Source of the DNA: a virus
Strand: one strand, 5' to 3'
Length of the DNA stretch: 34,071 nucleotides
Virus record (IMG/VR): IMGVR_UViG_3300046471_000241
Span: 1-34,071 of that record
Shown here: in pieces, positions 334 to 30,430 of the stretch
How positions within the stretch are numbered: position 1 is the first letter of the stretch
Layout: every line of letters starts with the position of its first letter
Made by a program: the position numbers and the translations under genes
The notes under the pieces: generated by a model
Databases searched by the model: none
Told to the model about the DNA's origin: nothing
The model's input: only the letters and a program-made list of their open reading frames with translations

Positions 334-909
334 GTAAACCTCTCGGACTGACTTTTGCTGTGTATGAATTCTTGCTTAATGTTATTTATTTGATTTTATT
401 ATCTTAATTACTACTCTTTATCTCGAGTGTACTTTACATAATTTCTTTTGAAATTAGCAAGGGGATTTTTCTTGCAAACCGTAAGTGAATATGTGGGGGT
501 TCTGTTAGTTTTTAGTAATGACTCCTTTTACCAAGATTGTTCTTATTTTGAATTTCTATATACAACCCTTATCTGAACAGGGGATGGGTTTTATAATATA
601 AATTATGGCTAAGACATTTCCTAGTAAGCATGCCATATGAATTTTTATTGAATACCTTGCTGACTGCTTCTTGATGCGGCTGAAATAAAAATCGGCAGGG
701 GTAGCGAAAAGAACAGGCCAGGAATTGGAAAAAGCTCATACGCTAATGTTTCTGACTCCCCATGTGCTGAGAGAACAAGACATTGTTCTTATTTACACAT
801 TATTTGGTCGCTTGTCTGGCATCCGGTGTCATTTAAACTCATTTTTGTTTCGTAATACTTACTCAGGGCTTTGTTTATGATTAGATTTTCTGGACAGATA
901 CAAGTGATA
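334..909. other. AT-rich stretch without a convincing gene
   Basis: About 575 bases of low-GC DNA with no ORF of credible length on either strand and no tRNA-like fold that I can see. It would contain the promoter of the minus-strand gene starting at 333, but no hexamer pair there is clear enough to call. Confidence 0.5.
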
Positions 910-1090
910 CTAATCTCCTCTCCCTGCGTTGAACACCGACAGGCGTCGATTCTCCGTGACTGAGCTTTTAATCAACCTGCAGTTATTGGCAGAACGCCGG
1001 GGCGCGCCGGAGAGGCTTTTTGCGGTCAAAACCTCCGGGTCAGGGGCAGAAGCAACGATGCGCTATTCTGGTGCGTGCTTATATCTCCGT
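910..1090 (-). pseudogene. A: Relic of a P2-type gene A (replication initiator), C-terminal part including the ori region
   Basis: Read on the minus strand, 980..1077 aligns with 28572..28670 of the intact gene A, with about 11 mismatches over some 92 aligned bases plus a small indel. It encodes the same peptide series RIVASA..EVLTAKS..GAPR. The Trp codon before RIVAS (TGG in the intact copy) is TAG here, and everything upstream in the gene is missing, so it cannot make gpA. After the shared NNC residues the frame runs into an unrelated tail and stops at 910. The retained piece includes the GGCGCGCC block that forms the likely rolling-circle origin in the intact gene. It is probably the remains of an older prophage or satellite at the same attachment site, with int, C and cox deleted. 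Confidence 0.85.
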
Positions 1091-1158
1091 CGACAATTGA
1101 GAACATCGGACTGACAGGTTCAGATACTGTTGAACGGCGCTGAGTAATAAAAAGGCAC

Positions 1159-1183
1159 TAAAAAAGGCACATTTTTGTGCCTT
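1159..1183. repeat. att core, left end of prophage (25-bp direct repeat, also a terminator)
   Basis: Identical over 25 bases to 33355..33379; the flanking bases differ on both sides (c/a before, g/t after). The core holds the inverted repeat AAGGCACA-AAAA-TGTGCCTT followed on the minus strand by a run of T. It is therefore also a rho-independent terminator that can stop leftward transcription coming from ogr. A partial extra copy (AAAAAGGCAC) lies immediately to the left at 1149..1158. Strand exchange by Int occurs somewhere inside this block. Confidence 0.93.
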
Positions 1184-1228
1184 GGGAAATGATGTTAAAT
1201 ATATGAATTAAATGGATTTATTCATCTC

Positions 1229-1249
1229 AGTGTCCACGCATTGACCACA
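1229..1249. promoter_or_regulatory. Candidate integrase arm-type sites, left arm
   Basis: AGTGTCCAC at 1229..1237 is followed by GACCAC 11 bases further on. The same AGTGTCCACA motif occurs twice with 11-bp spacing at 33241..33261 beside the other att core. P2 Int binds paired arm sites on either side of its core, so these are good candidates. This is inference from the shared motif and symmetrical placement. Confidence 0.5.
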
Positions 1250-1255
1250 TCGACA

Positions 1256-1286
1256 AAAGAAGCCTCGTTTATTCGGGGCTTTTTCT
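1256..1286 (-). terminator. Terminator after ogr
   Basis: Stem AGCCTCG (1261..1267) pairs with CGGGGCT (1274..1280), with one G-U pair and a six-base loop. On the minus strand it is followed by TCTTTT. It begins at the ogr stop codon and closes the FI-to-ogr operon. The plus strand also carries a T run after the stem, so it may work both ways. Confidence 0.75.
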
Positions 1287-1508
1287 TTAGTGCATCTGTA
1301 GGGATTGCTGACTGTGTTTATCTGGATGCAACTGAACAGCATGAACAGTTCCTGGCTCAACGATGATGTCAGCAATCGACTCATGAGTTTTAAATGTGCA
1401 ACTGCAGTTGATATTCTGACACTGGTGATAACGTTCTTTGGTGTTCGCGCTCAGGTAGCGGCTTGATCGTGCGTGCGCGGCGTGCTGGCATTTAGGGCAG
1501 TGCATCAT
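1287..1508 (-). CDS. ogr: Late-gene transcription activator Ogr
   Basis: Ogr is the small zinc-finger activator that lets host RNA polymerase use the phage late promoters by touching the alpha subunit C-terminal domain. The 73-residue product begins MMHCPKCQHAAHARSSRY and closely follows P2 Ogr (72 aa). It shows the paired-cysteine pattern CPKC, then a spacer of about 22 residues, then CQNINC, plus the KERYHQC core. I chose the ATG at 1508 because it aligns with the P2 start (MFHC); an in-frame ATG at 1520 would add four residues and neither has a strong ribosome site. It follows gene D and precedes a terminator. Its predicted targets are the TGT-N12 boxes at 7986, 13504 and 21349. Confidence 0.95.
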   Translation of the reverse strand: MMHCPKCQHAAHARSSRYLSANTKERYHQCQNINCSCTFKTHESIADIIVEPGTVHAVQLHPDKHSQQSLQMH

Positions 1509-1602
1509 AGTAATCACCATGTAATCATTTTAATCATATGCAATCATTGTATGTTATCGCGCAAAACATACATCTGAAATTACAGTGTTTTACACAGCTT
1601 GC

Positions 1603-2766
1603 TTATTCAGGCCCATCGCTTTCTGACGCCTCGTAATTTACATCTGACAAAAGCACCTCAAGATTTAACGTCGTCACAAATCCACTGCTGCCCAGGCTGT
1701 GTGTCACTTTGCTGATAATCCACGGCTGCGCGTCGATCACGGATTTAAAACCGGACACCGCCACCGGCGTTTCAGGAAATAAATCTGCACGCCCGCGAGC
1801 CAGGGAGAGCGAGAACTCTGCGACACCGCGCTGGAGTTTGTCCCATTTTGCCTGCGCCGCCCGCATGGCGGCCTTTTGCGTGGCGTAGATGGTGGTCAGG
1901 GCAAACACGTTTTCATCACTCCCCGCCAGGTAATCACCTTCTTTGGCCTCCGGCGGTTTCTCCACCTTTGCGCTGACCTTTTTCGCATTGGGATGCTGCA
2001 CGTTGTTCAGAGATTGTGATTTCTTTTTCCGCTGCACCTTCACCTTTTTAGGCTTCGGGTCTTTGGTGTGAAGCCAGCTTGCCGACACGCCGGTATAAGC
2101 CCCGCGATCGGCAATGTTGAACGTGTGCCCGTCGCCGTCGCTGCGCACGATGGTCATCTGCGGGATAGGCTTCCCGCTGGCGGTCTTTGCCGCCCCCGGC
2201 TTGATAAACAGCAAACTGCCCGCCTTGATGGCGACAACCGCGCCGTTCAGCTCGGCCAGGCGGGTAATAAACTTCGCGTCGGTTTCCTGGGTCTGGTCGA
2301 TGTGCGACACCTTCACGCCCCTGAATGGCTCAGCCACGGCGGGCTTGAGGTTATTGCGCGCCGCGACGGCGGCCACCACGGCCTCCAGAGTCGTGTCGTG
2401 GTAAGAGTTATCACGGCGGGAATTCAGGCTGCCGCGATAGTCCGCACTGCGGGCGCGAATGGTCAGCGTGTCCGGCGTCCCCCGGTGCTCAACTTCATCC
2501 ACCGTAAAGTCGCCTTTGTTTATCAGTGCCTGACCTTTCCAGCCGAGTGCGATATTTATCACGGCACCGCGCGGCGGCATTTCCATCAGTCCGTCCGTAT
2601 CGCTCAGCTCGATGTCGAGCTGGTCGGCCTCAAAGCCGCGGTTATCGGTGAGCGTCAGCGAAATCAGCCGGTTGCTGACGTCCTGGGTAATATCCTTCCC
2701 GGCCACGGTCACGGAGAAGCCAGGCGCAAACTGCGCACCGGCGCCGATGGTCATATCCGTAATCAC
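1603..2766 (-). CDS. D: Tail protein D (baseplate hub, late control protein)
   Basis: gpD forms the hub that connects the tail tube and baseplate to the gpV spike and is related to the T4 gp27-type hub. The product is 387 aa, the same length as P2 gpD as I recall it, and carries the typical N-terminal segment FSVTVAGKDIT and the linker rich in Lys near residues 240-260. The start is GTG at 2766, overlapping the stop of U as GTGA, which indicates translational coupling. An ATG four codons later is an alternative. It is the last tail gene before ogr in the F operon. No lesion is seen. Confidence 0.95.
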   Translation of the reverse strand: MITDMTIGAGAQFAPGFSVTVAGKDITQDVSNRLISLTLTDNRGFEADQLDIELSDTDGLMEMPPRGAVINIALGWKGQALINKGDFTVDEVEHRGTPDTLTIRARSADYRGSLNSRRDNSYHDTTLEAVVAAVAARNNLKPAVAEPFRGVKVSHIDQTQETDAKFITRLAELNGAVVAIKAGSLLFIKPGAAKTASGKPIPQMTIVRSDGDGHTFNIADRGAYTGVSASWLHTKDPKPKKVKVQRKKKSQSLNNVQHPNAKKVSAKVEKPPEAKEGDYLAGSDENVFALTTIYATQKAAMRAAQAKWDKLQRGVAEFSLSLARGRADLFPETPVAVSGFKSVIDAQPWIISKVTHSLGSSGFVTTLNLEVLLSDVNYEASESDGPE

Positions 2767-3233
2767 AGCAAGCCTCCCAACTGGCCGGTTAAACCACCCG
2801 CCTGATCCAGTAACCCGTCGGCCTGAGCTTTCATGTCGCCGAACATCGCCGCCAGAGATTCATCAACGCGGGTGAGCGTCAGCGTAAACTCTATCTTTCG
2901 CGGCGCGCCGTTGGAGAAAAATTCCGTGTGGGTTTCGCTGACGCTGTTCACCACGAACATCCCGTAAATCGTGCCGCTGCCCTCCAGCAGAGGCCACGCC
3001 TTGCCTTCATCGGCCATCAGGTTCAGTGCCAACAACGACAACTTTCCGCCGGTGATTTCCGGCATCAGCACGCCGGACAGGGTAATTTTCTCCTCATTCA
3101 CGCCGAGAAACTGCGGCAACGGACGCAGGCCGACGCGGTTGTTTGCAGGCCAGCGGTAATCGACATCGCGCTGCAAACTTTGATAAGGGACGGTCTGCAA
3201 CTGAAACACAAAAAAACCGAGCGTTAACATCAT
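2763..3233 (-). CDS. U: Tail completion protein U
   Basis: gpU is needed to finish the P2 tail; it belongs to the phage P2 GpU family and is packed between T and D in all P2-type phages. The 156-aa product starts MMLTLGFFVFQLQTVPYQ and contains the conserved middle RPLPQFLGVNEE and the SGTIYGMFVV block. The alternative second Met would shorten it by one residue. It begins 12 bases after the stop of T and overlaps the start of D by four bases, consistent with one late transcript running FI to ogr. Confidence 0.93.
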   Translation of the reverse strand: MMLTLGFFVFQLQTVPYQSLQRDVDYRWPANNRVGLRPLPQFLGVNEEKITLSGVLMPEITGGKLSLLALNLMADEGKAWPLLEGSGTIYGMFVVNSVSETHTEFFSNGAPRKIEFTLTLTRVDESLAAMFGDMKAQADGLLDQAGGLTGQLGGLL

Positions 3234-6222: not shown

Positions 6223-6732
6223 TTACAGGCCGATGTTTTTGCGGTGCTGTGCCACGCGGTCAACGCCGCCGACGATTTCCACCATGTTCACGGTATCGAC
6301 TTCAATCACGTCTTTGCCGTCAATCGTGAGTTTGAAATAGGTGCATTGGGTAGTGATTTTGGTTTCGGTGTCTTCACCCTGCTTGTACTCGCCGAAATCC
6401 ATCTCTTTATGACGTCCGCGCATCGTGACTTCCACGGCGGAGGTGTTGCCGGTGTCGTCGCGCTGGAAGGAACCGGCAAAGCGCAGCGGCACGGCATCCA
6501 CCGCGCCCCACTGCTGCAACACCAGTTCATCCAGTCCGCCCACCGTCCACTCAAAGGTCAGCGCGTCGTCATCCAGACCGAAATCAATGGCGGCGGAACC
6601 GGTCATGCCGCCGCCGCGATAGTTCTCCAGCTTGCGGGTCAGTTTCGGCAGCGTCAGCGCGCTAACCGTGCCGAGGTAGCTGTTCCCGTCGTTAAACAGG
6701 TTCAGGTATTTCAGTTTCTTAGGCAGTGCCAT
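6223..6732 (-). CDS. FII: Major tail tube protein FII
   Basis: FII polymerises into the inner tube of the contractile tail. The 169-aa product begins MALPKKLKYLNLFNDGNSYLG and runs with P2 FII (172 aa) over its whole length, including LPKLTRKLENYRGGGM, RFAGSFQRDDTGNT and the end HRKNIGL. It follows the sheath gene FI by 13 bases and precedes E by 58 bases. There is no sign of damage. Confidence 0.97.
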   Translation of the reverse strand: MALPKKLKYLNLFNDGNSYLGTVSALTLPKLTRKLENYRGGGMTGSAAIDFGLDDDALTFEWTVGGLDELVLQQWGAVDAVPLRFAGSFQRDDTGNTSAVEVTMRGRHKEMDFGEYKQGEDTETKITTQCTYFKLTIDGKDVIEVDTVNMVEIVGGVDRVAQHRKNIGL

Positions 6733-6745
6733 GTTTTAGCGCCTC

Positions 6746-7915
6746 TTAGCTGTTAACGGAGGTGGCGAACGTCGCCAGGTACTGATCGGTGATGCGCTGA
6801 CGCAGGGTTAAATCTTCCAGCGGCGGCACCGGCGTATAGTCGTAATCAATAAACAACTTGCCTGCTTTCAGGGTGTCGACGGTGTTCGCGTCGGGGTCAT
6901 ACCAGCAGTTGCCATCAATGATCAGACCGGCGGTTTTCATTTCGCGCAGCTTGGCGTTAATGCCCGCAATCATGTCCTTGATAAGCGTCGGGGTCATTGG
7001 CCTGTCCATCGCCCACAGGTGTGCTTCTGCCAGGGTGTCCGCCAGCACCTGCGCGGTGCGGGTGTAGTTCTCAAACAGGAACAGCGGATCATCTGAGCAG
7101 GTGCGCTGCCCCCAGAACTTAAAGCCGTCTTTGCGGATAAGCGTGGTCACGCACGCCTGGTTCAGCAGGTCAGCATCGGTGCCGGGGGTCTGCAAATCCC
7201 AGTACACGCTGGCAGACAGGCCGGTGACGCCGTTGATCCCGACGTTAGAGAGTGTTTTATGCCAGCCGGTTTCCGCATCGATTTTGGCACGCAGGCCGAG
7301 GGCATAAGCCGTTGCAGGGGCGATGTCGCTGGCGTTGGTGGTGGTGTTCCAGGATACAAAATCCGGCCAGACCACCATCAGCTCACGCTGGCTGAAATTG
7401 TCGCGGTACTTGATGGCATCAGAGACGGTTTTACAGCCGTATGCGCTGACGTAGCCGAATGCACGCAATTGCTGACAGACGGCGGCAAGCGCGGTCGCAA
7501 CCTCCTGGTTATCCAGACCCGGCACGCCGAGAATGCGCGGCTTTACGCCGAGTTCAGTCTGCGCGGACAGCAGGGCTTTCATACCGGTATACATGCCGGT
7601 TTCGTCTGACCCACCGATGATGTTGGAGGTGGTTTCCGCTTCGGTGTCACCTTCTGCCACGCGCACGACAACGACAACGGGTTTAGCCTGGTTGGCGATC
7701 GCCATCAGCGAGGCGCGCAGCGTGCCGGTTTTACCGGCCTTACCGGCGGCGGTGAGTACGTTGGTAATGAGTACCGGCGTATCCAGCGGGAACGTGGCAG
7801 CGTCCGCATCTTCGCCGGTGCAGACCATCCCGATGATGGCGGTGGAAACGGTGGAGATAACGCGGGTGCCGTCATTGATTTCAACAACGCGCACACCGTG
7901 ATGATAATCAGCCAT
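6746..7915 (-). CDS. FI: Tail sheath protein FI
   Basis: FI is the contractile sheath subunit. The 389-aa product starts MADYHHGVRVVEINDGTRVI and ends in the conserved DYDYTPVPPLEDLTLRQRIT, closely matching P2 FI (396 aa). The middle block NFSQRELMVVWPDF and the segment GWHKTLSNVGINGVTG are also as in P2. It is the first gene of the F operon, with an Ogr-type activator site about 70 bases upstream at 7986..8003. Confidence 0.97.
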   Translation of the reverse strand: MADYHHGVRVVEINDGTRVISTVSTAIIGMVCTGEDADAATFPLDTPVLITNVLTAAGKAGKTGTLRASLMAIANQAKPVVVVVRVAEGDTEAETTSNIIGGSDETGMYTGMKALLSAQTELGVKPRILGVPGLDNQEVATALAAVCQQLRAFGYVSAYGCKTVSDAIKYRDNFSQRELMVVWPDFVSWNTTTNASDIAPATAYALGLRAKIDAETGWHKTLSNVGINGVTGLSASVYWDLQTPGTDADLLNQACVTTLIRKDGFKFWGQRTCSDDPLFLFENYTRTAQVLADTLAEAHLWAMDRPMTPTLIKDMIAGINAKLREMKTAGLIIDGNCWYDPDANTVDTLKAGKLFIDYDYTPVPPLEDLTLRQRITDQYLATFATSVNS

Positions 7916-13888: not shown

Positions 13889-15340
13889 CTATCTTGTTCT
13901 CCTACCATGTTCGCTGCAACTCAACCATTCTGCTACGTTCATTATAGCCTGCGGATGTGAATGCGTTGAATGTATTAACATGCCATCACTTTGTGGAGCG
14001 AATTTTATGACATTATGCCCCCCGCCAACTGGGGTTTCAGATGTTGCAACAAAAACTTCCGGACAAAAAATTAATCGTAAATCACCATAAGCTATTGCCT
14101 TGGCTAAGGCCAGCCAAAATGAAAATATTGCAACTGGGATTGCAGCAATAAGTAAAACATGGGGGGTGTCTTTTGATGGTTTCACCCATTGATAAATATG
14201 AGAAATAACAGTTAATATAAAACTCACCATAAATACATAGATAAAATACTTTTCCTGAGGATAAAAAACCAATATATTAATACTAGCGAAAATATAAAAG
14301 AGATAACTTAAAATAGCTGACCAATGTATTAACCCACTACGTTTCACTTGACCTTTTTTAAGTTGAGAGAATATAGAAAAACACCATTCATGAAGTGAAC
14401 TTACAAACCTAAGCCCCGAATCCGCTTCATCACCAATAGCGTGAAAAATCTCAACATTTCTAAAGTCAACTGCTTCCTGCTCTTTTTCATTGTCTACTTC
14501 TCTTAAAAAATCATTTTTATATTTTTTGGATATTTTTATTTCAAAGAATATTGAAATAAAGAAAATCAGTGCTGCTAAATTGAGGTTGTATAATTCAAAG
14601 GGCACTAACAACACTGCCAGAAAAAACTGAATAGCCAAGGCACCACTAATATTAATAAGATTCAATAACGAGCCTGAAGTTCTTGTTATCTTTCGGCGGA
14701 AAATGAATGGTGGTGATAAAAGGCAAACTCCTTGAACTTTTTTGGCAATGTCAGGTCGCAAGTAAGACATTTCTCTCACAATGGCTGCGCCATGGCTGTG
14801 AGCGACAATGTAGTTATTTTTTGCAGGTGAGTTGTAAATATGTTCCCCTAATTGATGAGCTGCATGTTTACGAGAGGATACTGTGTTTTTCCCATCCCAG
14901 ATAAATCTAGATAGTTGTACTTTTGGATTTCTTTTTTTAATTGATTTGCACATTTCTGAGTCTGATTGCGTCCACGGTGCATTCGGCTCGAATGTGCCAT
15001 GAACAAGGTGAACTATGACCTCTGCTGATTCAATATCAGCAATTTCGTTAATAGTTGTTTTTTTATGAGGAGGAAATATACAATGCCATGCCGTTAAAAT
15101 AACCTTTTGCCAGATTACATAGTGAGCGAGTACTAATATGAGTATTATTGCGACAGGTATAGTTATGAGGCCAATGGCAACTGTCTTAATGACATATTGG
15201 AGTGTGCCTTTGTTGTGAGTAATACAATAATATAGTATGGATGAAATAAAAAGCACTGACATAGCTATCAACACGCCAGCCAAACCAAATAATACAACAT
15301 AGTCAATAAAATTATCATGTATCATCAAACGGTCTTCCAT
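13889..15340 (-). CDS. Cargo gene: multi-pass membrane serine hydrolase (lipase-like)
   Basis: The 483-aa protein combines an alpha/beta-hydrolase core with about six hydrophobic helices. Helices lie near residues 13-40, 49-77, 228-269 (two), 338-360, 364-386 and 393-418. The hydrolase part shows VHLVHGTF (111-117) as a likely oxyanion strand and VAHSHGAA (179-186) with Ser182 as nucleophile. HAIGDEADSGL (300-310) offers Asp304 or Asp307 as the acid, and IHSTHSHP (456-463) probably supplies the His. A complete triad is therefore plausible. The gene is AT-rich, unlike its neighbours, and sits between S and V, where P2 carries the cargo gene orf30. A lipid or ester substrate is inferred. A role in lysogenic conversion or phage exclusion fits the place but is not shown. 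Start: ATG 15340 has no ribosome site; ATG 15325 has GGA upstream. A TATAAT lies at 15352..15357. Confidence 0.8.
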   Translation of the reverse strand: MEDRLMIHDNFIDYVVLFGLAGVLIAMSVLFISSILYYCITHNKGTLQYVIKTVAIGLITIPVAIILILVLAHYVIWQKVILTAWHCIFPPHKKTTINEIADIESAEVIVHLVHGTFEPNAPWTQSDSEMCKSIKKRNPKVQLSRFIWDGKNTVSSRKHAAHQLGEHIYNSPAKNNYIVAHSHGAAIVREMSYLRPDIAKKVQGVCLLSPPFIFRRKITRTSGSLLNLINISGALAIQFFLAVLLVPFELYNLNLAALIFFISIFFEIKISKKYKNDFLREVDNEKEQEAVDFRNVEIFHAIGDEADSGLRFVSSLHEWCFSIFSQLKKGQVKRSGLIHWSAILSYLFYIFASINILVFYPQEKYFIYVFMVSFILTVISHIYQWVKPSKDTPHVLLIAAIPVAIFSFWLALAKAIAYGDLRLIFCPEVFVATSETPVGGGHNVIKFAPQSDGMLIHSTHSHPQAIMNVAEWLSCSEHGRRTR

Positions 15341-23180: not shown

Positions 23181-23347
23181 TGAAAACCACCCACATCGCC
23201 CCACAAAAAAACGTCTGGACGGGCAAGGATAATTCCAGCGAGCCGCATCGCCTGAAACATCAGCCGTCAGCGGATGAATTCCGTGCGCAATACCAGGGCG
23301 GCGCCCACACTAACCACTCACACCCAAAAGGTGATCAACGTGGCTAA
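23180..23347 (+). CDS. Small ORF between P and Q, possibly coupled
   Basis: A 55-codon frame starts at an ATG that overlaps the stop of P (TAATG) and ends inside the first codons of Q. The product (MKTTHIAPQKNVWTGKDNSS... GDQRG) is polar and His-rich, and I do not know the family. It fills the whole gap between the two terminase and portal genes, so coupling of translation from P to Q is its clearest possible role. It could also be chance. Confidence 0.45.
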   Translation: MKTTHIAPQKNVWTGKDNSSEPHRLKHQPSADEFRAQYQGGAHTNHSHPKGDQRG

Positions 23348-24371
23348 GCGAAAATTCCGCAAGACGGCACAAAACACGCTCACGGCAACAGCGCAGCAGA
23401 CTGGCGGGGAGATGACGTTCAGCTTTGGCGACCCGACACCGGTGTTAGACCGCCGTGAAATTCTGGACTACATCGAATGCATCGGTAACGGCCAATGGTA
23501 TGAGCCGCCGGTCAGCTTTGACGGACTGGCTCGCACGCTGCGCGCTGCGGTTCACCACAGCTCGTCACTGTATGTGAAGCGGAATATTCTGGCCTCCACC
23601 TTTGTCCCGCACCCGCTGCTTTCACAGCAGGAATTCAGCCGCTTCGCTCTGGATTACCTGGTGTTCGGGAATGCGTTTTTAGAAGTGATCCGCAACCAGC
23701 TCGGCGACGCCGTGGTGATGAAAACCGTGCCCGCCAAATATGCACGGCGCGGCGTGGAGCCTGATACTTACTGGTTTGTGCAACAATGGAAAGAGGCGCA
23801 CCAGTTTGAAACGGGCAGCGTGTTTCATCTGATTGAGCCGGATATTAATCAGGAGCTGTACGGCCTGCCGGAATATCTCAGCGCCCTGAATTCCGCCTGG
23901 TTGAATGAGGCAGCCACGTTGTTCCGCCGGAAGTACTATCAGAACGGCGCACACGCCGGATACATTTTGTATATGACGGATGCAGCGATGAGCAGCAGCG
24001 ACGTTGATGCCATGCGTAAGGCAATGGGTAGTACTAAAGGTCTGGGTAACTTCCGTAACGGGTTTATGTACGCGCCTAACGGCAAGCCTGACGGTCTAAA
24101 AATCATCCCTTTGAGTGAAGTCGCCACCAAAGACGATTTTTTTAATATCAAGAAAGCCAGCCAGAACGATTTGCTGTGCGCGCACCGCGTGCCACCGCAG
24201 ATGATGGGCATTATTCCGGAGAACAGCGGCGGGTTTGGTGATTCGGTGAAGGCGTCGCAGGTGTTTGTGCGTAACGAACTGACGCCGTTACAAGAACGTT
24301 TTAAAGAGTTAAATGCATGGTTTGGGGAGGATGTGATCAGATTTACCTCTTACGAACTTACGCCGGAGTAA
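23340..24371 (+). CDS. Q: Portal protein Q
   Basis: gpQ forms the dodecameric portal through which DNA enters the head. I choose the GTG at 23340, preceded by AAAAGGTG at proper distance, which gives 343 aa (P2 Q is 344 aa) and the basic N-terminus VAKRKFRKTAQ. The longer frame from 23274 lies in the small upstream ORF. The P2 landmarks VLDRREILDYIECIGNGQWY, HHSSSLYVKRNILASTF and SVFHLIEPDINQELYGLPEY are all present. It is the last gene of the rightward P operon; cargo and cos follow. Confidence 0.96.
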   Translation: MAKRKFRKTAQNTLTATAQQTGGEMTFSFGDPTPVLDRREILDYIECIGNGQWYEPPVSFDGLARTLRAAVHHSSSLYVKRNILASTFVPHPLLSQQEFSRFALDYLVFGNAFLEVIRNQLGDAVVMKTVPAKYARRGVEPDTYWFVQQWKEAHQFETGSVFHLIEPDINQELYGLPEYLSALNSAWLNEAATLFRRKYYQNGAHAGYILYMTDAAMSSSDVDAMRKAMGSTKGLGNFRNGFMYAPNGKPDGLKIIPLSEVATKDDFFNIKKASQNDLLCAHRVPPQMMGIIPENSGGFGDSVKASQVFVRNELTPLQERFKELNAWFGEDVIRFTSYELTPE

Positions 24372-24470: not shown

Positions 24471-24553
24471 TATTCCTCGATTCGATCAAGATCATACGCT
24501 AAAGTTTCACCTCCAATTTGACTATACACAGTTACCTTTTTAAAAGGATTATA

Positions 24554-25132
24554 ATGAAAACGCTGTTAAGAGCTTTTGCCGTTCTCGCCATTGCAGTAGG
24601 CCTCTCTGGGTGTGCTATTAGTTTACCGTTTAATAACCGCCTGGCTTACTCTTCTATTTCGGATATGAAATCAGTGCAAATCCAAGGGGAAAAACCGAAA
24701 CTCTCAATTTCTTGGAACCCGGTTAACTTCCCTCAGCGCATCGATATTCAGGGTTCAGATGGCTTCGTAGGCGGTGGTTCCCGTACTCGGTTACCAACTG
24801 GTGTGGCCCTATCCTCTCGCATTGAAGAAGCCATTTCTACTTATGCAGATATATCACCATCAGGTCAAAATCTGACAATTACAGTACTTGAAGCACGTTC
24901 CGGTTTTGAGTATTCAGCGGGTATATTCAACATTACTCCTGCTATTGATGTCGGTACCGTTACATTCAATGCTGCGTTTAGCTTGAACGGTAAAACGTGG
25001 AATCAACAATTCTCCTCACACAAGAAAGATCCAACTATCGGCGGTACTTCAGCTACAGGTATTCTTGAAAGTGCTTGGGACGACGTTGCAGTGCAAGTTG
25101 CAAAAAGCATAGCTGCGCATATCGAAAAATAA
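24554..25132 (+). CDS. Cargo lipoprotein, function unknown
   Basis: A 192-aa precursor from the ATG at 24554, with AAGGA five bases upstream; an in-frame ATG at 24518 would lengthen it without a signal peptide logic. MKTLLRAFAVLAIAVGLSGC is a clean lipoprotein signal with lipobox LSGC and Cys20. The residue after Cys is Ala, so sorting to the outer membrane is expected. The mature part is Ser/Thr/Gly-rich beta-type sequence, and I cannot assign a family with certainty. It lies between Q and the cos-like site, where P2 has only a short gap. A constitutively expressed surface lipoprotein in a prophage could act in superinfection exclusion or host conversion. That is inference. Confidence 0.85.
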   Translation: MKTLLRAFAVLAIAVGLSGCAISLPFNNRLAYSSISDMKSVQIQGEKPKLSISWNPVNFPQRIDIQGSDGFVGGGSRTRLPTGVALSSRIEEAISTYADISPSGQNLTITVLEARSGFEYSAGIFNITPAIDVGTVTFNAAFSLNGKTWNQQFSSHKKDPTIGGTSATGILESAWDDVAVQVAKSIAAHIEK

Positions 25133-25140
25133 TCTAATTT

Positions 25141-25171
25141 CCCCATTGCATGGACGAATATTGCAATGGGG
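25141..25171. terminator. Hairpin after the lipoprotein gene
   Basis: CCCCATTGCA (25141..25150) and TGCAATGGGG (25162..25171) form a perfect 10-bp stem with an 11-base loop, eight bases past the stop codon. There is no T run after it, so it may be a weak terminator or part of the adjoining cos region. Confidence 0.45.
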
Positions 25172-25190
25172 AGTAGTCCCGCACCCCGGC

Positions 25191-25216
25191 GCGCGCAATG
25201 TTACCCGCCTGCCCGC
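25191..25216 (-). other. cos: Candidate cos site (packaging and DNA end cleavage)
   Basis: On the minus strand this reads GGGCAGGCGGGTAACATTG followed by CGCGC. It resembles the P2 cohesive-end sequence as I remember it (GGCGAGGCGGGGAAAGCAC followed by TGCGCGC). The shared parts are AGGCGGG, the AA after it, and TGCGCGC. It is a GC-rich island in AT-rich DNA. Its strand and direction toward Q are those of P2, and it lies between the Q-side and A-side cargo. No other place in the window between Q and A looks like cos. Confidence 0.65.
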
Positions 25217-25594
25217 TTCTTACTTAGTAGGTTGTTTTCAATGCATAGCTCACTACACGGCAAAGCCCTCTATGAAGGGCATACAAGTACTTTTCGATCC
25301 TACTGCGGGGCATGCAAAATCATGCGTATAATGCATGCAAATTTTCCTACACGTTGACGAATGCAAGAAATCGGTGGGCATATTTTGCTTTTAAGCACCA
25401 TGGATATAGTCGCAGATGGTGGTGAGCATGTAAGCACACTTGAAGATGCATAAGGATTGAGCATGTGAAAAAGTTTTTTTTGGCCTTCGTGAAGTAAAAG
25501 ATAACTGCATCATATTAGAGTGTGGTAAAGATAAATTATATAAAATGGACAAATACTTTATAAATTAAAGGTATATTCTTTTTATTATCTTTCG
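25217..25594. other. Non-coding region between cos and the STAND gene
   Basis: About 380 AT-rich bases. A 38-codon frame on the plus strand at 25241..25357 (MHSSLHGKALYEGHTS... with a CGAC pair) is the only short ORF with any character, and its support is weak. ATGCATGC-type palindromes cluster at 25312..25342. Terminase-binding sequences would be expected near cos, but I cannot identify them. Confidence 0.4.
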
Positions 25595-25642
25595 ATAAAA
25601 ATAAGAATACGCAGTCGCTGAATTTATACCCAACGACTGCGT
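25595..25642 (-). terminator. Terminator of the STAND NTPase gene
   Basis: ACGCAGTCG (25609..25617) pairs perfectly with CGACTGCGT (25634..25642) over a 16-base loop. On the minus strand the stem is followed by ATTCTTATTTTTATC. It lies ten bases after the stop codon, giving the cargo gene its own transcription end. Confidence 0.8.
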
Positions 25643-25652
25643 GTGTGTGAAA

Positions 25653-28238
25653 TTACTTACGGATGAGTTTTCTTTTAAGTCTCTGGCAATGTACTTCGTT
25701 GGGTTCAATACTTAAACCAATGTTAGCGAGTTCTAATGCTTCTTGCTCTTTATTAAGATGTAAAGCTAGCCAGGCAATTCTTGAACAAGATATTGGATCG
25801 GCTTCATCTTTTCTACGATAAATTACATTAAAGAGTTTAATTAGTAATTCGTTTTTAACCTGATCACCCAATTCTATTTCGTTTGAACTAAACAAATGAT
25901 TAATCTTATTTGTTATGTTTGAAAGTTCGTCAAATCCAATGTTATCATAAGCTGATAATTGAGTAAGCCCATGTATTTGGTCGAAGGGTTGGTTAAGTCT
26001 TTCAGCAATATTTGAAAATATATTCCAAGCCTGAAATTTATTTTTCTCATATTTTTCATTTTCAATGTACCGTGTAATGCAATCTTTGGCCAAGTGGTTA
26101 AACTCATGAAGGTTAGCTTCGAGTAACCACATAGCTAGTAATTTCCAACCACCATTAAAAGTGATACATATTCTTTCGAGAATTATTTTGTGATTTTTTA
26201 TAAAGTCCGTATCATGGTTCAGGGTTGACAGGTAACGAGTGAAGTTATTGCTTAAAGAGTTATTTTTGTCTTCTAAACTAATTGCTCCGAATCTTCTCAG
26301 ATACGATAAGTCTTGTGAGATAACAAATTTCTGGGAGCTAACACCTACTTTTTTATTACCAAAAGAAAAAGCTACATAAGGTAGTTGGAGAAAATAGTAT
26401 CCGTCTTCTGATTTCAATTCCTCAATCATTGAATATTGAATAAGAAGATCGATTGACTTCTCGACCTCTAATGGTTCCTCAAAAGAAAACATCAAAACAG
26501 CTTCTAGCCCTAATCGTGGTACTGCGGAATTCCACGAGGATAAAGTTAAAAATACTCTTTGAGCATAAGGTGGTAAAATAGAGTATGTTCTTTCAAACAA
26601 TGCAGTCAATACTTCATCACTGCCAGCAATCAATCGTTCCAATGAACCTTTCATCTTATTTCTTACTAAATCACCAATTAGTATTTTAATGATGTATGGA
26701 TGACCAGCAGAAATAGTATAAATCTTGTCTCTGTTTTCTTTTGTTATTCCACCTTCAATTTTTAAACTCTCAATTGTGAGGTTTATCAATTTCATCGATT
26801 GTTCTTTGCTCATTCCTTGAACATGAAGAGGGTAATCGCCTCTGAAATCACGAAGGCGAGTTGTTATCAATATCTTATTCGGAGATCTAATATAAGTGTC
26901 AACCCATTTGTAGGTTTCAGTGGGGTTGTCGATAGTTTCAAAATTATCAAATATAAATAAGGTAGAGCCTGCATCTGCTTTAGTTAATTGGTTTTGAAAG
27001 TACGTAATAGCATCAAAACTTTTTTCTTTTATTTGTTTAGATGATTTAAATAGTTTTGAATAATAGTCCGCTATATCTTTTTTTGTAATTACTTCAGCTC
27101 TAACGATTTTAGCACCATTTGGTGAAAGATCTATGTCTCTAGAGCTAAACCAAATTATTGCATCAAATCTTGTGTTTTCATATAAACGAGGAATTACCTT
27201 TAACGCTAGCGAAGTTTTACCAATCCCGCCCCTACCCAATAAAGTTATAGCTATGTGTCTTTCATCGTTAAGAAGTGTAAATAGTTCATCTTCTAATTCA
27301 TCGCGATTAATGTACTCGTAAGATAATCTAGGAACGTTAGAGAAGCAATTCTCATAAGATATTAACTCACCTAAACCTTCAGACTCACTTGGTGGTAACT
27401 GTCCTTTGGGTGATGAATATTCATTTGAATCACCATGAATTTTATCATCACTTAGATATGAAATCATTTCATATCTACTATTAGTGAATCCCCCGTTAGC
27501 AATATAGAAGTCGCGTAAATCAGGATCGCTTATAACTAGGGGTATCTTACATAATTTATCTACATAAATATAAATACCTTCTTCATATTGATAGCTGTCA
27601 GTTCTCTTTAATATTTCGAATTCATTATTTAAAGTTGATATAGGGGAAACCCTAAATTTACCGCTCATATTCCTTTTTAAATATGCGGAAGGGAGTTTAA
27701 GTAAGGAGAGGTTATCAATAATTAGATTGATACTTTTATCTAAATGGATGGCTGCTTTAGATGCTGAGTTGCTTACTGTTGCGCCATGCCCGCGAGTTTT
27801 ATTTCTAAGCTCAGTGAAATGCTTAAACCAAGATTTAAGATCTTTTTTTACTAGATTTTTATCGTATGGTAAGTTAAAGCACTCTAATGAAAGTTGGAGT
27901 TCACTGACAGCTTCGAATTGCCAATCTCCTAATGTTGATTTTTTTATAAATTCTGCTTGATGGGTTCTCATTTCATCGGGTAAGTACTGCGAGGCGGTGC
28001 CTATGAGTAAATCATCAATTGAGTTTGACCATTCACCTAAACCACTTGCTCTTACTAAGCCATGGAGAATTTTATATTGATGCCTATCCTTATCTTTTTT
28101 TAAGGATGATACTAATGATAAGGTTATTAATTTGGTTAAAGCTTCACCAAAAATTAACAAGTTGAAGAAGAAAGCAAAATCAGAGTCGCTTTTTGAAATC
28201 TCGACCTTTCTACTTAGTTGCTCTATAAAACGATTCAT
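25653..28238 (-). CDS. Cargo gene: STAND NTPase, HEPN-like N-terminus plus NB-ARC plus repeats (probable anti-phage protein)
   Basis: A protein of 861 aa from the ATG at 28238, which has GAGG five bases upstream; the TTG at 28265 is less likely. The helical N-terminus holds ELRNKTRGHG, an R-x5-H motif (R145-H151) typical of HEPN ribonucleases. The NTPase core has Walker A LGRGGIGKTS (334-343), Walker B TLFIFDNFE (426-434), the sensor ITTR (458-461) and GHP (512-514), the NB-ARC order. A winged-helix region and helical, TPR-like repeats follow to the end. STAND proteins of this design sense a ligand with the repeats, oligomerise through the NTPase and fire the N-terminal effector. The gene is AT-rich, has its own terminator, and occupies the A-cos interval where P2 has the exclusion genes tin and old. 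Anti-phage function is therefore likely but inferred; the trigger is unknown. Confidence 0.85.
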   Translation of the reverse strand: MNRFIEQLSRKVEISKSDSDFAFFFNLLIFGEALTKLITLSLVSSLKKDKDRHQYKILHGLVRASGLGEWSNSIDDLLIGTASQYLPDEMRTHQAEFIKKSTLGDWQFEAVSELQLSLECFNLPYDKNLVKKDLKSWFKHFTELRNKTRGHGATVSNSASKAAIHLDKSINLIIDNLSLLKLPSAYLKRNMSGKFRVSPISTLNNEFEILKRTDSYQYEEGIYIYVDKLCKIPLVISDPDLRDFYIANGGFTNSRYEMISYLSDDKIHGDSNEYSSPKGQLPPSESEGLGELISYENCFSNVPRLSYEYINRDELEDELFTLLNDERHIAITLLGRGGIGKTSLALKVIPRLYENTRFDAIIWFSSRDIDLSPNGAKIVRAEVITKKDIADYYSKLFKSSKQIKEKSFDAITYFQNQLTKADAGSTLFIFDNFETIDNPTETYKWVDTYIRSPNKILITTRLRDFRGDYPLHVQGMSKEQSMKLINLTIESLKIEGGITKENRDKIYTISAGHPYIIKILIGDLVRNKMKGSLERLIAGSDEVLTALFERTYSILPPYAQRVFLTLSSWNSAVPRLGLEAVLMFSFEEPLEVEKSIDLLIQYSMIEELKSEDGYYFLQLPYVAFSFGNKKVGVSSQKFVISQDLSYLRRFGAISLEDKNNSLSNNFTRYLSTLNHDTDFIKNHKIILERICITFNGGWKLLAMWLLEANLHEFNHLAKDCITRYIENEKYEKNKFQAWNIFSNIAERLNQPFDQIHGLTQLSAYDNIGFDELSNITNKINHLFSSNEIELGDQVKNELLIKLFNVIYRRKDEADPISCSRIAWLALHLNKEQEALELANIGLSIEPNEVHCQRLKRKLIRK

Positions 28239-28299
28239 CTCTACCTCATAAAATTTAGTTATCAAAATTCATTAAATTTTACATGTCGTAATGAAATGA

Positions 28300-28327
28300 A
28301 GTTAGCAATCTCTAAGTTAGTTAGCAA
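28300..28327. repeat. Two direct repeats upstream of the STAND gene, operator-like
   Basis: AGTTAGCAA occurs at 28300..28308 and 28319..28327, 19 bases apart, with a related GTAGTTAGT further upstream. They lie 62 to 90 bases before the start codon, in the likely promoter region. They could be binding sites for a regulator; none is identified. Confidence 0.4.
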
Positions 28328-28432
28328 CTTGATTTTGTGCCTACTTTGCAATTACTAGTTTTTTAGGTGTAGTTAGTAAGTGCTTTAAAGGCAAAAGCGA
28401 AATTTTTATGAAATGCGATTCTTTAATATTCG

Positions 28433-30430
28433 TTATAACCTCGCCACAATCGGTATCTGCCGATGTATCGAGTCAACATTAGATTGTAGGTGGGCTGATG
28501 TAAGCGTTTTATAAGGCCTGCCAGCCTGGCTATCATGGATATTGTATGTAGGTTTCGTTCTGCCTAACCCACAGTTATTGACAGAACTCCGAGGCGCGCC
28601 GGAGGCGCTTTTTGCGGTCAAAACCTCAGAATCAACGGCAGAAGCAACGATGCGCCATTCAGTGGTGCGCGTTTCATATACATGTGATTCGCCGAGGTGG
28701 GGCGCGAAAATGCCCACAACTTTTTTCACTTCTTCATCGTAGGCGTTCAGCTCATTGGCAACGCGACGTGCTACGCGCACCGTCTGATCGTCACGCGGTA
28801 TATTAGCGCCGCCCTGGGCTGTCATGTACGCCATAAAGTCACCGGCATCAGCAGCAGCGCGAACGGCTTCCACTTCTTCGTCAAAGGTTTCAGTCAGACT
28901 GATGGAACGGATGCGGCGGCACTCACGGTATGAACCCATAGTAGGCAGGCCGATGGGATGGAATTGAGGGATACGCCATGTTGCAGCCCAGGCAGTAACA
29001 GCAGCAGCGGAATCCGTCAGAAGCTCGCCGGTCTCGTGGTCGCGTTCGCCTTCCAGTGCGTAACCGTCGATATTCTTCGCGATGTATTTAGCGATGTAGC
29101 CAGCAGCACCGCCTCGGTTCAGGTGCTTACAGTCAAAGCGGTTCTTGGCTGCGCCGCGCTCGTCACCGTCTTCTTTCATGGCGTATTTGCGCATGATATC
29201 GATCACCGACTTACGCATGGCAGGCTTGGTGAATAACATCATGTGCCAGTGCGGAGTCGCGTCGTGGTGAGGCTCAACTACGCGCATCCCATAAACTGAT
29301 AGGCCACTGTCTTTAAACGCGGTGCGCATTTTGCTCCAGATCCCACAAAGATAACGCTGTGCATCTTTCGGCGTGTAGGCCTCTTTGTCCCAGGCATGAT
29401 TTCGCTGAACGCGCTTGTTATCACCTTTACCAACCATGCGGGTCGGGTGAAATTTAGAAGGGGTGGTGATGGTCAGAAACATCCCGACGTCACCATTCGC
29501 GGCAGCATATTTTTCGGTGCCGGCGATAGTGCTCATCAGCTCCATGCGGCGGATTTCAGGGTTTGAAATACTCGCCATGACCTTATCGATCAAACTGATA
29601 CGCTCGCCGGTTTCGACATTCTCCAGGTCGCGGCTTTTTAGATAGTCCAGATTCGACAGTCGGCGGGAACGAACTTCACGGATAGCCTGCTTACTGGCAT
29701 AGGGAGACGCGTCACGGTTAACCTTGCCGATTGCGATCAGCAATGACTCACGCCAGCGGGTACGCTGGCCTTTCAACTGACTTAACCACCAATCGGGATT
29801 TACCAGCCGAGACATGCTAGCGATGGCAGACGTTGCATCAAGCTTGCCTTTAGTGAATTTTGTCCAATACATAGGGTTGACGTTGAAGGCACGAGACATT
29901 CCTGCAATATCACGATACAGAGCGCACTGCGTATCAGACTGAAGAAGTACCGCGTAATCTCCACCATGTTCAGCCAACAGCTGATCGCAACGGTCTTCAT
30001 AAATGGCCTTCAATTGTCCTGCAATATTCTGTGTGAAACGACGTAGCGGTTTGTCGCTCATGCTTGGTAACTGGTGATAAACATCGGCCTCTGAGATGAA
30101 TTTCATGGTGGCATTGATATTCATTGCATGGGCTTTATTAACTGCATCGACACGCGGCAGGATGCTGCGGCCAAGGGTATAAACCAGATATTTATTGGCT
30201 GCGTGAATGCCCAGAGTTTTGAGCAGGTACTTATGGCGGCCAGTGAAAATTTCTTGCAGGTCTTTAGAGAGGTTTTTTACTTTGATTAAAACAGCTTGCC
30301 CCTGATCGTATTCATCACGGGTAAGCGGTCTCGGCCTTTCTTGGGGAACGATTGGGGCTAGGGGTTTATTCCAGGGGAACGCCCAAACATCGGGCGTTTC
30401 AGTCTGAGAAGTAAAGCGATTGTTCTGCAT
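28433..30430 (-). CDS. A: Replication initiator A (rolling-circle HUH endonuclease)
   Basis: gpA nicks ori and stays bound to the 5' end to start rolling-circle replication. The 665-aa product has the metal-binding HUH motif PHWHMML (H394, H396) and the tyrosine pair Y445 and Y449 in GYIAKYIAKN, equal to Tyr450/Tyr454 of P2. Similarity to P2 gpA is strong up to APRSSVNNCG near residue 610. The remaining 55 or so residues are unrelated and about 100 residues fewer than in P2, so the C-terminus has been replaced right after ori. The start ATG overlaps the stop of a 27-codon ORF (TAATG). It is the last gene of the early operon. A relic copy is at 910..1090. Confidence 0.96.
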   Translation of the reverse strand: MQNNRFTSQTETPDVWAFPWNKPLAPIVPQERPRPLTRDEYDQGQAVLIKVKNLSKDLQEIFTGRHKYLLKTLGIHAANKYLVYTLGRSILPRVDAVNKAHAMNINATMKFISEADVYHQLPSMSDKPLRRFTQNIAGQLKAIYEDRCDQLLAEHGGDYAVLLQSDTQCALYRDIAGMSRAFNVNPMYWTKFTKGKLDATSAIASMSRLVNPDWWLSQLKGQRTRWRESLLIAIGKVNRDASPYASKQAIREVRSRRLSNLDYLKSRDLENVETGERISLIDKVMASISNPEIRRMELMSTIAGTEKYAAANGDVGMFLTITTPSKFHPTRMVGKGDNKRVQRNHAWDKEAYTPKDAQRYLCGIWSKMRTAFKDSGLSVYGMRVVEPHHDATPHWHMMLFTKPAMRKSVIDIMRKYAMKEDGDERGAAKNRFDCKHLNRGGAAGYIAKYIAKNIDGYALEGERDHETGELLTDSAAAVTAWAATWRIPQFHPIGLPTMGSYRECRRIRSISLTETFDEEVEAVRAAADAGDFMAYMTAQGGANIPRDDQTVRVARRVANELNAYDEEVKKVVGIFAPHLGESHVYETRTTEWRIVASAVDSEVLTAKSASGAPRSSVNNCGLGRTKPTYNIHDSQAGRPYKTLTSAHLQSNVDSIHRQIPIVARL
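28572..28605 (-). other. ori: Predicted rolling-circle origin (ori) inside gene A
   Basis: On the minus strand GGCGCGCCTCGGAGTTCTG followed by TCAATAACTG matches my recollection of the P2 nick region (CGCGCCTCGGA/GTCCTG). P2 gpA acts in cis on an origin inside its own gene, at this place in the coding sequence. The same block, altered at several bases, is retained in the relic at 980..1013. Exact nick position is not provable here. Confidence 0.6.

Follow-up and report, generated by a model that had tools for sequence, protein, structure and literature searches.

A predicted HEPN-like NLR-type protein in the exchangeable cargo of a P2-type prophage is a candidate single-gene abortive-infection system

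Bacterial proteins with an N-terminal HEPN domain fused to a STAND NTPase, including combinations of HEPN with STAND, TPR and S1, were predicted in 2013 by Anantharaman et al. (PMC3710099), and HEPN effectors linked to a STAND module that is inactive were described in 2021 (PMC8195603). In the hotspot of P4 phages, Rousset et al. (2022) reported TIR-STAND-TPR, SIR2-STAND and nuclease-STAND proteins. Another published hotspot is the interval between gpA and gpQ in P2-like phages, which holds old and tin in P2 itself; protection against phages was seen for old-tin and for three of eight other systems cloned from it, and an NLR is named there in a figure legend (PMC9122126). Tha, in turn, is a prophage-encoded HEPN RNase triggered by phage tail proteins, and its protection is abolished by the H270A substitution (PMC11087260), while the defence systems newly validated in a 2026 paper include HEPN-domain systems and also systems that have P-loop NTPases, NACHT among them (PMC13092281). 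Here, we analysed the IMG/VR virus entry IMGVR_UViG_3300046471_000241, a stretch of 34,071 bases (the window), and in it the gene of an 861-residue protein with HEPN-like, NB-ARC and TPR-like parts. We consider it probable that this protein is a single-gene, NLR-like abortive-infection (superinfection-exclusion) system which travels as exchangeable cargo of a P2-type prophage and acts by predicted HEPN RNA cutting. At the sequence level both HEPN signatures, an NB-ARC domain with its main motifs, a TPR-like C-terminus, a cargo position and a foreign base composition are apparent. A preliminary description, made from the letters alone, had proposed a HEPN-like/NB-ARC abortive-infection sensor in the place where P2 keeps its exclusion genes; its observation is confirmed, and its interpretation is partly supported.

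The gene lies on the minus strand at 25653..28238, the coordinates already given in that description, and its frame is intact from the ATG at 28238 to the stop ending at 25653, with zero internal stops. Since a Shine-Dalgarno-like GAGGT precedes this ATG, an alternative TTG start at 28265 (870 residues) is less likely and was dropped. Its start lies 194 bp past the gpA gene, which is read from the same strand. It is AT-rich, as had been noted, with a GC content of 33.2% against 53.9% for the window outside 25133-28432. The terminator of its own that had been claimed for it was found as an intrinsic terminator-like hairpin of 15 pairs (25609..25642, minus strand), which begins 10 nt after the stop codon. 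Terminator-like sites numbered three in the region and 1.7 (standard deviation 1.5) in shuffled sequences, so the case for this hairpin rests on its place and length, not on the count.

The N-terminal domain, residues 1-181 (27696..28238, minus strand), is all-helical and HEPN-like in an AF2 model of residues 1-202, which reached pLDDT 87.3 and pTM 0.85 with six sequences in the alignment. By definition, HEPN domains carry R-x4-6-H, in which N, D or H follows the R; many families, not all, have a second motif, E-x3-[KR], in helix 2, and what is inserted between helices 2 and 3 varies, being a loop, a helix or a hairpin (PMC3710099). The candidate HEPN active site of our protein reads R145-N-K-T-R-G-H151 (27786..27806, minus strand), the R-x5-H that had been pointed out before, and a second signature, E32-x3-K36 (28131..28145, minus strand), which had gone unmentioned, is located in the predicted helix 20-44. 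Taken alone, R-x5-H is weak evidence, since 8.0% of shuffled versions of the protein have a motif of this type within the first 200 residues and 31% have one anywhere; the protein itself matches the pattern a second time, at residue 52. It becomes strong evidence once the relatives are included, because the motif is kept in nine of nine N-termini, with RN[KR]TR[GA]HGA as the invariant pattern among relatives 33-55% identical to the 861-residue protein. The same nine carry E-x3-K, and residues 145-153 (RNxTRxHGA) make up the most conserved nine-residue window of the N-terminus. When the 22 invariant residues of eight N-termini (without that of L197, a chromosomal relative discussed below) were placed at random, both motifs arose in 4 of 200,000 trials, a generous test which treats invariant columns as independent and ignores the clustering of conserved sites. 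In the model, R145 lies near the end of helix 135-148 and H151 ahead of helix 156-176, with several helices between residues 53 and 120 as the insert, bigger than the 2013 paper describes. All four HEPN features taken from that paper, covering motifs and layout, were found in the sequence and the model of residues 1-202.

Downstream of this domain, residues 190-303 (27330..27671, minus strand) form a conserved middle block without a family, with 19 of 44 invariant columns (six sequences); its SGK reads NGK in L197, and its confidence in the full-length model is low. Pfam matches of the whole protein all start at residue 309 or later, and those of PADLOC and NCBIfam all fall in the NTPase region. 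The complete NB-ARC NTPase of the preliminary description was borne out: residues 321-530 (26649..27278, minus strand) match PF00931 at E=5.4e-9, with 36.1 bits against a curated cut-off of 23.5, the other Pfam matches being weaker models of related NTPases. The Walker A motif GRGGIGKT (27213..27236, minus strand) recurs as G.GGIGKT in all nine sequences that reach it, and Walker B (DNFE-type), TTR and GHPY motifs are also present. With a profile score over the cut-off and Walker A and B in place, the protein belongs with the STAND/NB-ARC NTPases. A full-length AF2 model, built from six sequences, was poor (pLDDT 54.8), so only its more confident parts were used. In structural comparison with VIA, residues 308-470 of it resembled ORC/Cdc6 and plant NLR NTPases at Z of about 10-11, and residues 679-861 resembled TPR chains at similar Z (about 10-11). 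The C-terminus, earlier called repeat-rich, holds as such at the level of fold: helical, TPR-like repeats span residues 660-861 (25656..26261, minus strand), the model shows helical repeats in the last 200 residues, with pLDDT mostly 70-90, and Pfam TPR_2 is matched at E<=0.1 by four of six family members. Superstructure-forming repeats at the C-terminus, a further feature of STAND proteins, are seen here in both the model and the members. No Pfam TPR model matched the 861-residue protein itself at E<=1. Two class assignments were dropped, FxSxx_TPR for an NCBIfam match below the cut-off and DRT for a PADLOC model, RTas1465, that covers residues 378-482 only. Separately, phrog_24039, a phage family of unknown function, matches residues 310-606 (3.8e-14) and represents another phage-borne STAND-type family.

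The window is marked as a P2-type prophage by genes for an integrase, Cox, tail fibre, sheath, gpA and the portal, and its right end has a carbonic anhydrase gene that looks like host flank. Because the nearest portal proteins in named genomes, metagenomes aside, belong to Rahnella and Ewingella (90-93%), the host is probably of that kind. The 861-residue gene sits, as had been stated, in the A-cos interval where P2 has tin and old: one border is the replication protein gene gpA (28433..30430, minus strand; Phage_GPA, 4.6e-100), the other the portal protein gene gpQ (23274..24371, plus strand; Phage_portal, 2.6e-17), and next to the gene a conserved block at 25180..25339, fully or partly matched by 25 of 160 P2-type loci, is probably the cos region. 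In the related locus L003, similarity to the window (blastn, E<=1e-8) ends at 25339 on the gpQ side, with 96% DNA identity, and resumes at 28518 on the gpA side with 86%, which delimits an exchanged cargo segment of 25340..28517; in L004 identity is 98% up to 25246 and 94% from 28521. Each of the two has different genes between the same borders. Since their similarity breaks off around the gene, the 861-residue gene is the part that differs in an exchange whose borders are conserved; both a hotspot-cargo position and exchange between related phages are found here. At the same threshold, bins 25400-28499 have zero blastn coverage from the 160 P2-type loci.

How variable the slot is became clear from the 121 of these 160 loci in which both gpA and gpQ borders were present. 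The slots held 216 open reading frames of at least 200 residues, in 179 clusters, compared with 451 frames in 70 clusters on the structural side, where four large clusters dominate. A PADLOC scan covered 80 of these 179 cluster representatives, chosen by hand among the first 140 with a bias to the one or two larger frames per locus; it matched 408 models at 1e-8, a figure that reports families and not the number of members with any match, and none of the 25 models listed had more than five members. NsnB, PtuA, AriA, HEC-01A, Old and AbiLi led, and GajA was also among the models. As families are counted and no control set was used, the scan tells what sort of cargo is present and not whether defence genes are enriched. 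In these P2-type loci (L003-L082 and L085-L164), what the slot carries is extremely diverse and a source of candidate defence genes in its own right.

The family of the 861-residue protein is rare and occurs in unrelated prophages and as lone chromosomal genes. Searches with the single protein or gene (E. coli megablast, phages, plasmids, viral contigs, genome contigs) returned no full-length relative; among plasmids there was one match, of 25% over residues 300-605, and the L168 relative found nothing there. By tblastn or profile searches of sampled genomes, at cut-offs from 1e-5 to 1e-20 and with overlapping samples, three genomic relatives were obtained in all: L168 (33-34% identity), L173 (36%) and L197 (55%). 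Samples of 8 genomes (1e-5), 4 genomes and 389 genomes (1e-20) gave none. One NTPase-only and no full-length match came from 392 genomes of the family, one of each from 369 genomes of the class (a two-genome search giving the same full-length one), one relative from 398 genomes of the phylum (the same one as in a 48-genome search), and one from 375 genomes (1e-20). Motif scans and alignments of viral contigs added relatives on seven contigs, and three further motif scans yielded no contig beyond these. They are L171 and L174 (43%), L175 and L176 (36-37%, with identical proteins), L183 and L177 (one contig), and the fragments L178 and L182, which come from one metagenome and are possibly one gene.

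The viral or prophage-type setting of the viral relatives follows from the collection searched. Their neighbours include an integrase and a methyltransferase (L171), an integrase, an exonuclease and a CI-like repressor (L174), baseplate and major head genes (L175), a Mu-type transposase and a terminase (L177) and a portal gene (L178). The genomic relatives are solitary; judged by eye from translations, housekeeping-type genes surround L173 and L197, and nif-type genes lie near L168. The L197 gene has 36% GC in surroundings of 64%, and that of L173 35% in 53%. Altogether GC is at least 5 points below the surroundings in 8 of 11 stretches, L171 and L183 differing by about 3 points and L174 being 1 point higher. 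Of 560 open frames near ten of the loci, just three pairs matched across loci, an integrase (window and L171), a portal protein (L175 and L178) and a 61-residue methyltransferase fragment (L171 and L182), annotated partly by position, so there is no recurring partner gene. Two further genes are of note. Directly upstream of the L168 relative, at 6706-7515 (plus strand), a 269-residue frame without a family match carries RNRIVH, a HEPN-type motif. L165, in a genome of the family of G001, encodes at 895-3219 (plus strand) a 774-residue NB-ARC-TPR protein whose match to HEPN_Swt1 is weak (0.0077, below the cut-off), with a resolvase-like gene alongside; it is possibly another HEPN-NB-ARC-TPR design with a different N-terminus.

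Several results weigh against a HEPN-bearing defence protein. The preliminary description had proposed a profile search of the N-terminus against HEPN families, and this failed to back the assignment: the HEPN models of Pfam gave zero matches to eight N-termini (without L197) at E<=10, the single Pfam match of that scan being DUF3025 in one member (0.047). Foldseek found nothing at E<=0.001 for the N-terminal model among PDB and viral models. In VIA, HEPN-type chains made up 7 of 50 among the matches listed and scored within the noise level for helical bundles, with rhodopsins and other bundles at similar Z (about 5): MtlR led them at Z 6.0 (117 residues aligned, 3.8 Å), followed by the sacsin HEPN domain at 5.7 (114/137, 3.4 Å), Csm6 at 4.8, and HepS at 4.8 and Las1 at 3.7, the last two of which we take to be HEPN proteins. 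The label HEPN-type was given to MtlR and sacsin by PMC3710099 or by title, and to Csm6 by PMC11087260. The N-terminal profile, compared with the L165 N-terminus and with the L168 neighbour, gave a probability of 0.4%. For the whole protein, PADLOC at E<=1 returned RTas1465 only, a weak and off-topic match. No defence neighbours of the L168, L173 and L197 genes were recognised by eye, and tblastn at 1e-3 found 0 relatives in the 160 other P2-type loci. In addition, the N-terminal profile retrieved one PDB chain at 0.16, non-HEPN, that of the whole protein retrieved an arsenite ATPase only, and a PHROGs scan of residues 1-309 was empty. Because Pfam HEPN matches are missing, Foldseek is empty and VIA is within noise, we call the N-terminus HEPN-like, by active-site signature and predicted topology, and not a proven HEPN member by fold or a proven RNase. 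The earlier HEPN assignment is supported by the two conserved signatures and is not raised above noise by the fold search.

An all-helical domain to residue 181 without a HEPN model match could also be read as a death-fold or membrane-active bundle, like those of plant coiled-coil resistosomes, which would make the protein a defence NLR without RNase activity. Plant NRC, ZAR1-type and Sr35 resistosomes are indeed among the structural neighbours of the full-length model, and some of these matches take in the helical N-terminus. However, they do so at a root-mean-square deviation (rmsd) of about 9-21 Å, and no resistosome is among the matches listed for the N-terminal model alone. The strongest conservation falls on RNxTRxHGA, and invariant polar or basic residues at helix ends, together with E-x3-K, suit an active site better than a pore. 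We thus regard a pore-forming or death-fold N-terminus as unlikely.

The resemblance to MtlR-type chains, among the top VIA matches, raises a different alternative, namely that the domain is HEPN-like and catalytically idle, serving as an RNA-binding or adaptor part for a separate host factor as the effector; inactive HEPN domains do exist, for example in part of the MtlR family (PMC3710099). Idle domains of this sort lack the motif according to the same paper, whereas its residues are kept in all nine N-termini here, and no partner gene recurs around the loci. We find this alternative very improbable.

The surroundings of the relatives bear on whether the gene serves defence at all. Many STAND proteins are regulators, and the 861-residue protein might have a part in the physiology of the prophage or of the host. 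NCBIfam matches in this direction, all far below cut-off, are those of four family members to FxSxx_TPR and of one to AfsR, and the three genomic relatives are solitary and outside recognised defence islands. The preliminary description had held that homologues mainly outside defence contexts would speak against it; the relatives weigh clearly neither way on this point, as the viral ones are in prophage-type contigs by the make-up of the collection and those three have no defence neighbour recognised by eye. On the other hand, scans of the window protein gave no DNA-binding family, and the cargo slot, the exchange between related phages, the low GC and the patchy occurrence suit a conflict gene, so that a purely regulatory role appears quite unlikely.

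Defence by a HEPN-like NLR is therefore the reading we prefer, and its most likely course can be sketched. For a TIR-STAND-TPR protein it was proposed that the repeats sense a phage product and that NTP-dependent assembly activates the effector (PMC9122126); from this proposal we infer the sensing and assembly steps, and from Tha (PMC11087260) the cutting of RNA by HEPN pairs. The C-terminal repeats would keep the protein inactive and recognise a product of the infecting phage, upon which ATP-dependent assembly or oligomerisation of the NB-ARC domain would pair up the HEPN domains; HEPN RNases are metal-independent and usually work as dimers. R145 and H151, with E32, would then cleave RNA and stop growth before phages are released, to the benefit of the resident prophage and of the lysogenic population.

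Two other frames of the window deserve mention. At 13889-15340 (minus strand), a 483-residue membrane, alpha/beta-hydrolase-like frame stands between genes which we take, from P2 gene order, to be of gpV and lysis type; it has a weak Pfam Ser_hydrolase match (0.0022) but none at E<=0.01 in PADLOC, NCBIfam or PHROGs, and seems to be a second cargo gene. A 204-residue lipoprotein-like frame with an LSGC lipobox (read by eye), located at 24518-25132 (plus strand) between gpQ and the cos-like block, is also present in L003 and L004 and has no family match at E<=0.01. An Rfam scan of the window gave zero matches, and no tRNA was found in the window, L168, L173 or L197.

AVAST (Avs) proteins are STAND NTPase sensors of phage proteins. 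An Avs5 filament chain is in the VIA list of our protein at Z 9.8, but with an rmsd of 15 Å over 255 residues, and no Avs model of PADLOC matched at E<=1, so the protein was not assigned to the Avs class. HepS of the prophage Gifsy-1 (PDB 9oik), a prophage protein on the phage tail tip, is matched at Z 4.8 over 116 residues, within noise, and its chain of 197 residues, compared with 861 here, leaves no room for an additional NB-ARC core. Tha shares with our protein the prophage-borne HEPN domain and the R-N...H motif (RNSIMH in Tha) and is predicted to be a dimer; Tha-1, however, has 301 residues with HEPN at the C-terminus, no N-terminal domain is discernible in it, and the accessible text reports no NTPase (PMC11087260). 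The HEPN-STAND proteins of 2013 also have an N-terminal HEPN domain, a STAND NTPase and a predicted role in conflicts (PMC3710099); as they are described, the 861-residue protein is set apart from them by the lack of a HEPN family match and by the conserved middle block.

The HEPN-STAND combination is thus not new in principle, having been described in 2013 and 2021 (PMC3710099, PMC8195603), and with STAND-TPR proteins known since 2022 (PMC9122126) the earlier suggestion that the exact architecture may be undescribed was too strong. In the literature searched, mostly outside subscription papers, we found no tested HEPN-NLR phage defence. At somewhat less than an even chance, in our judgement, the family founds a distinct candidate group of HEPN-NLR sensors made by one gene each. 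In these, an undescribed, strongly conserved middle domain of about 110 residues (NxSGKxR-type) would link a new HEPN subfamily (RNxTRxHGA) to NB-ARC, and the group would have spread as cargo in prophages of P2-like, Mu-like and lambdoid type and, in chromosomes, as solitary inserts. If true, a single phage gene would unite the design of plant and animal immune receptors with an RNA-cutting effector, and since the relatives define the residues to mutate, the questions of bacterial NLR sensing and of HEPN as its effector could be addressed with one cloned gene. The type of hotspot is already known for STAND defences with TIR, SIR2 and nuclease effectors. With the STAND proteins of the P4 hotspot and the NLR of the P2 hotspot our protein shares the STAND core, the C-terminal repeats and the type of slot; the effector of the STAND proteins described there is TIR, SIR2, Mrr_cat or BpuSI_N (PMC9122126), whereas in the 861-residue protein it is HEPN-like.

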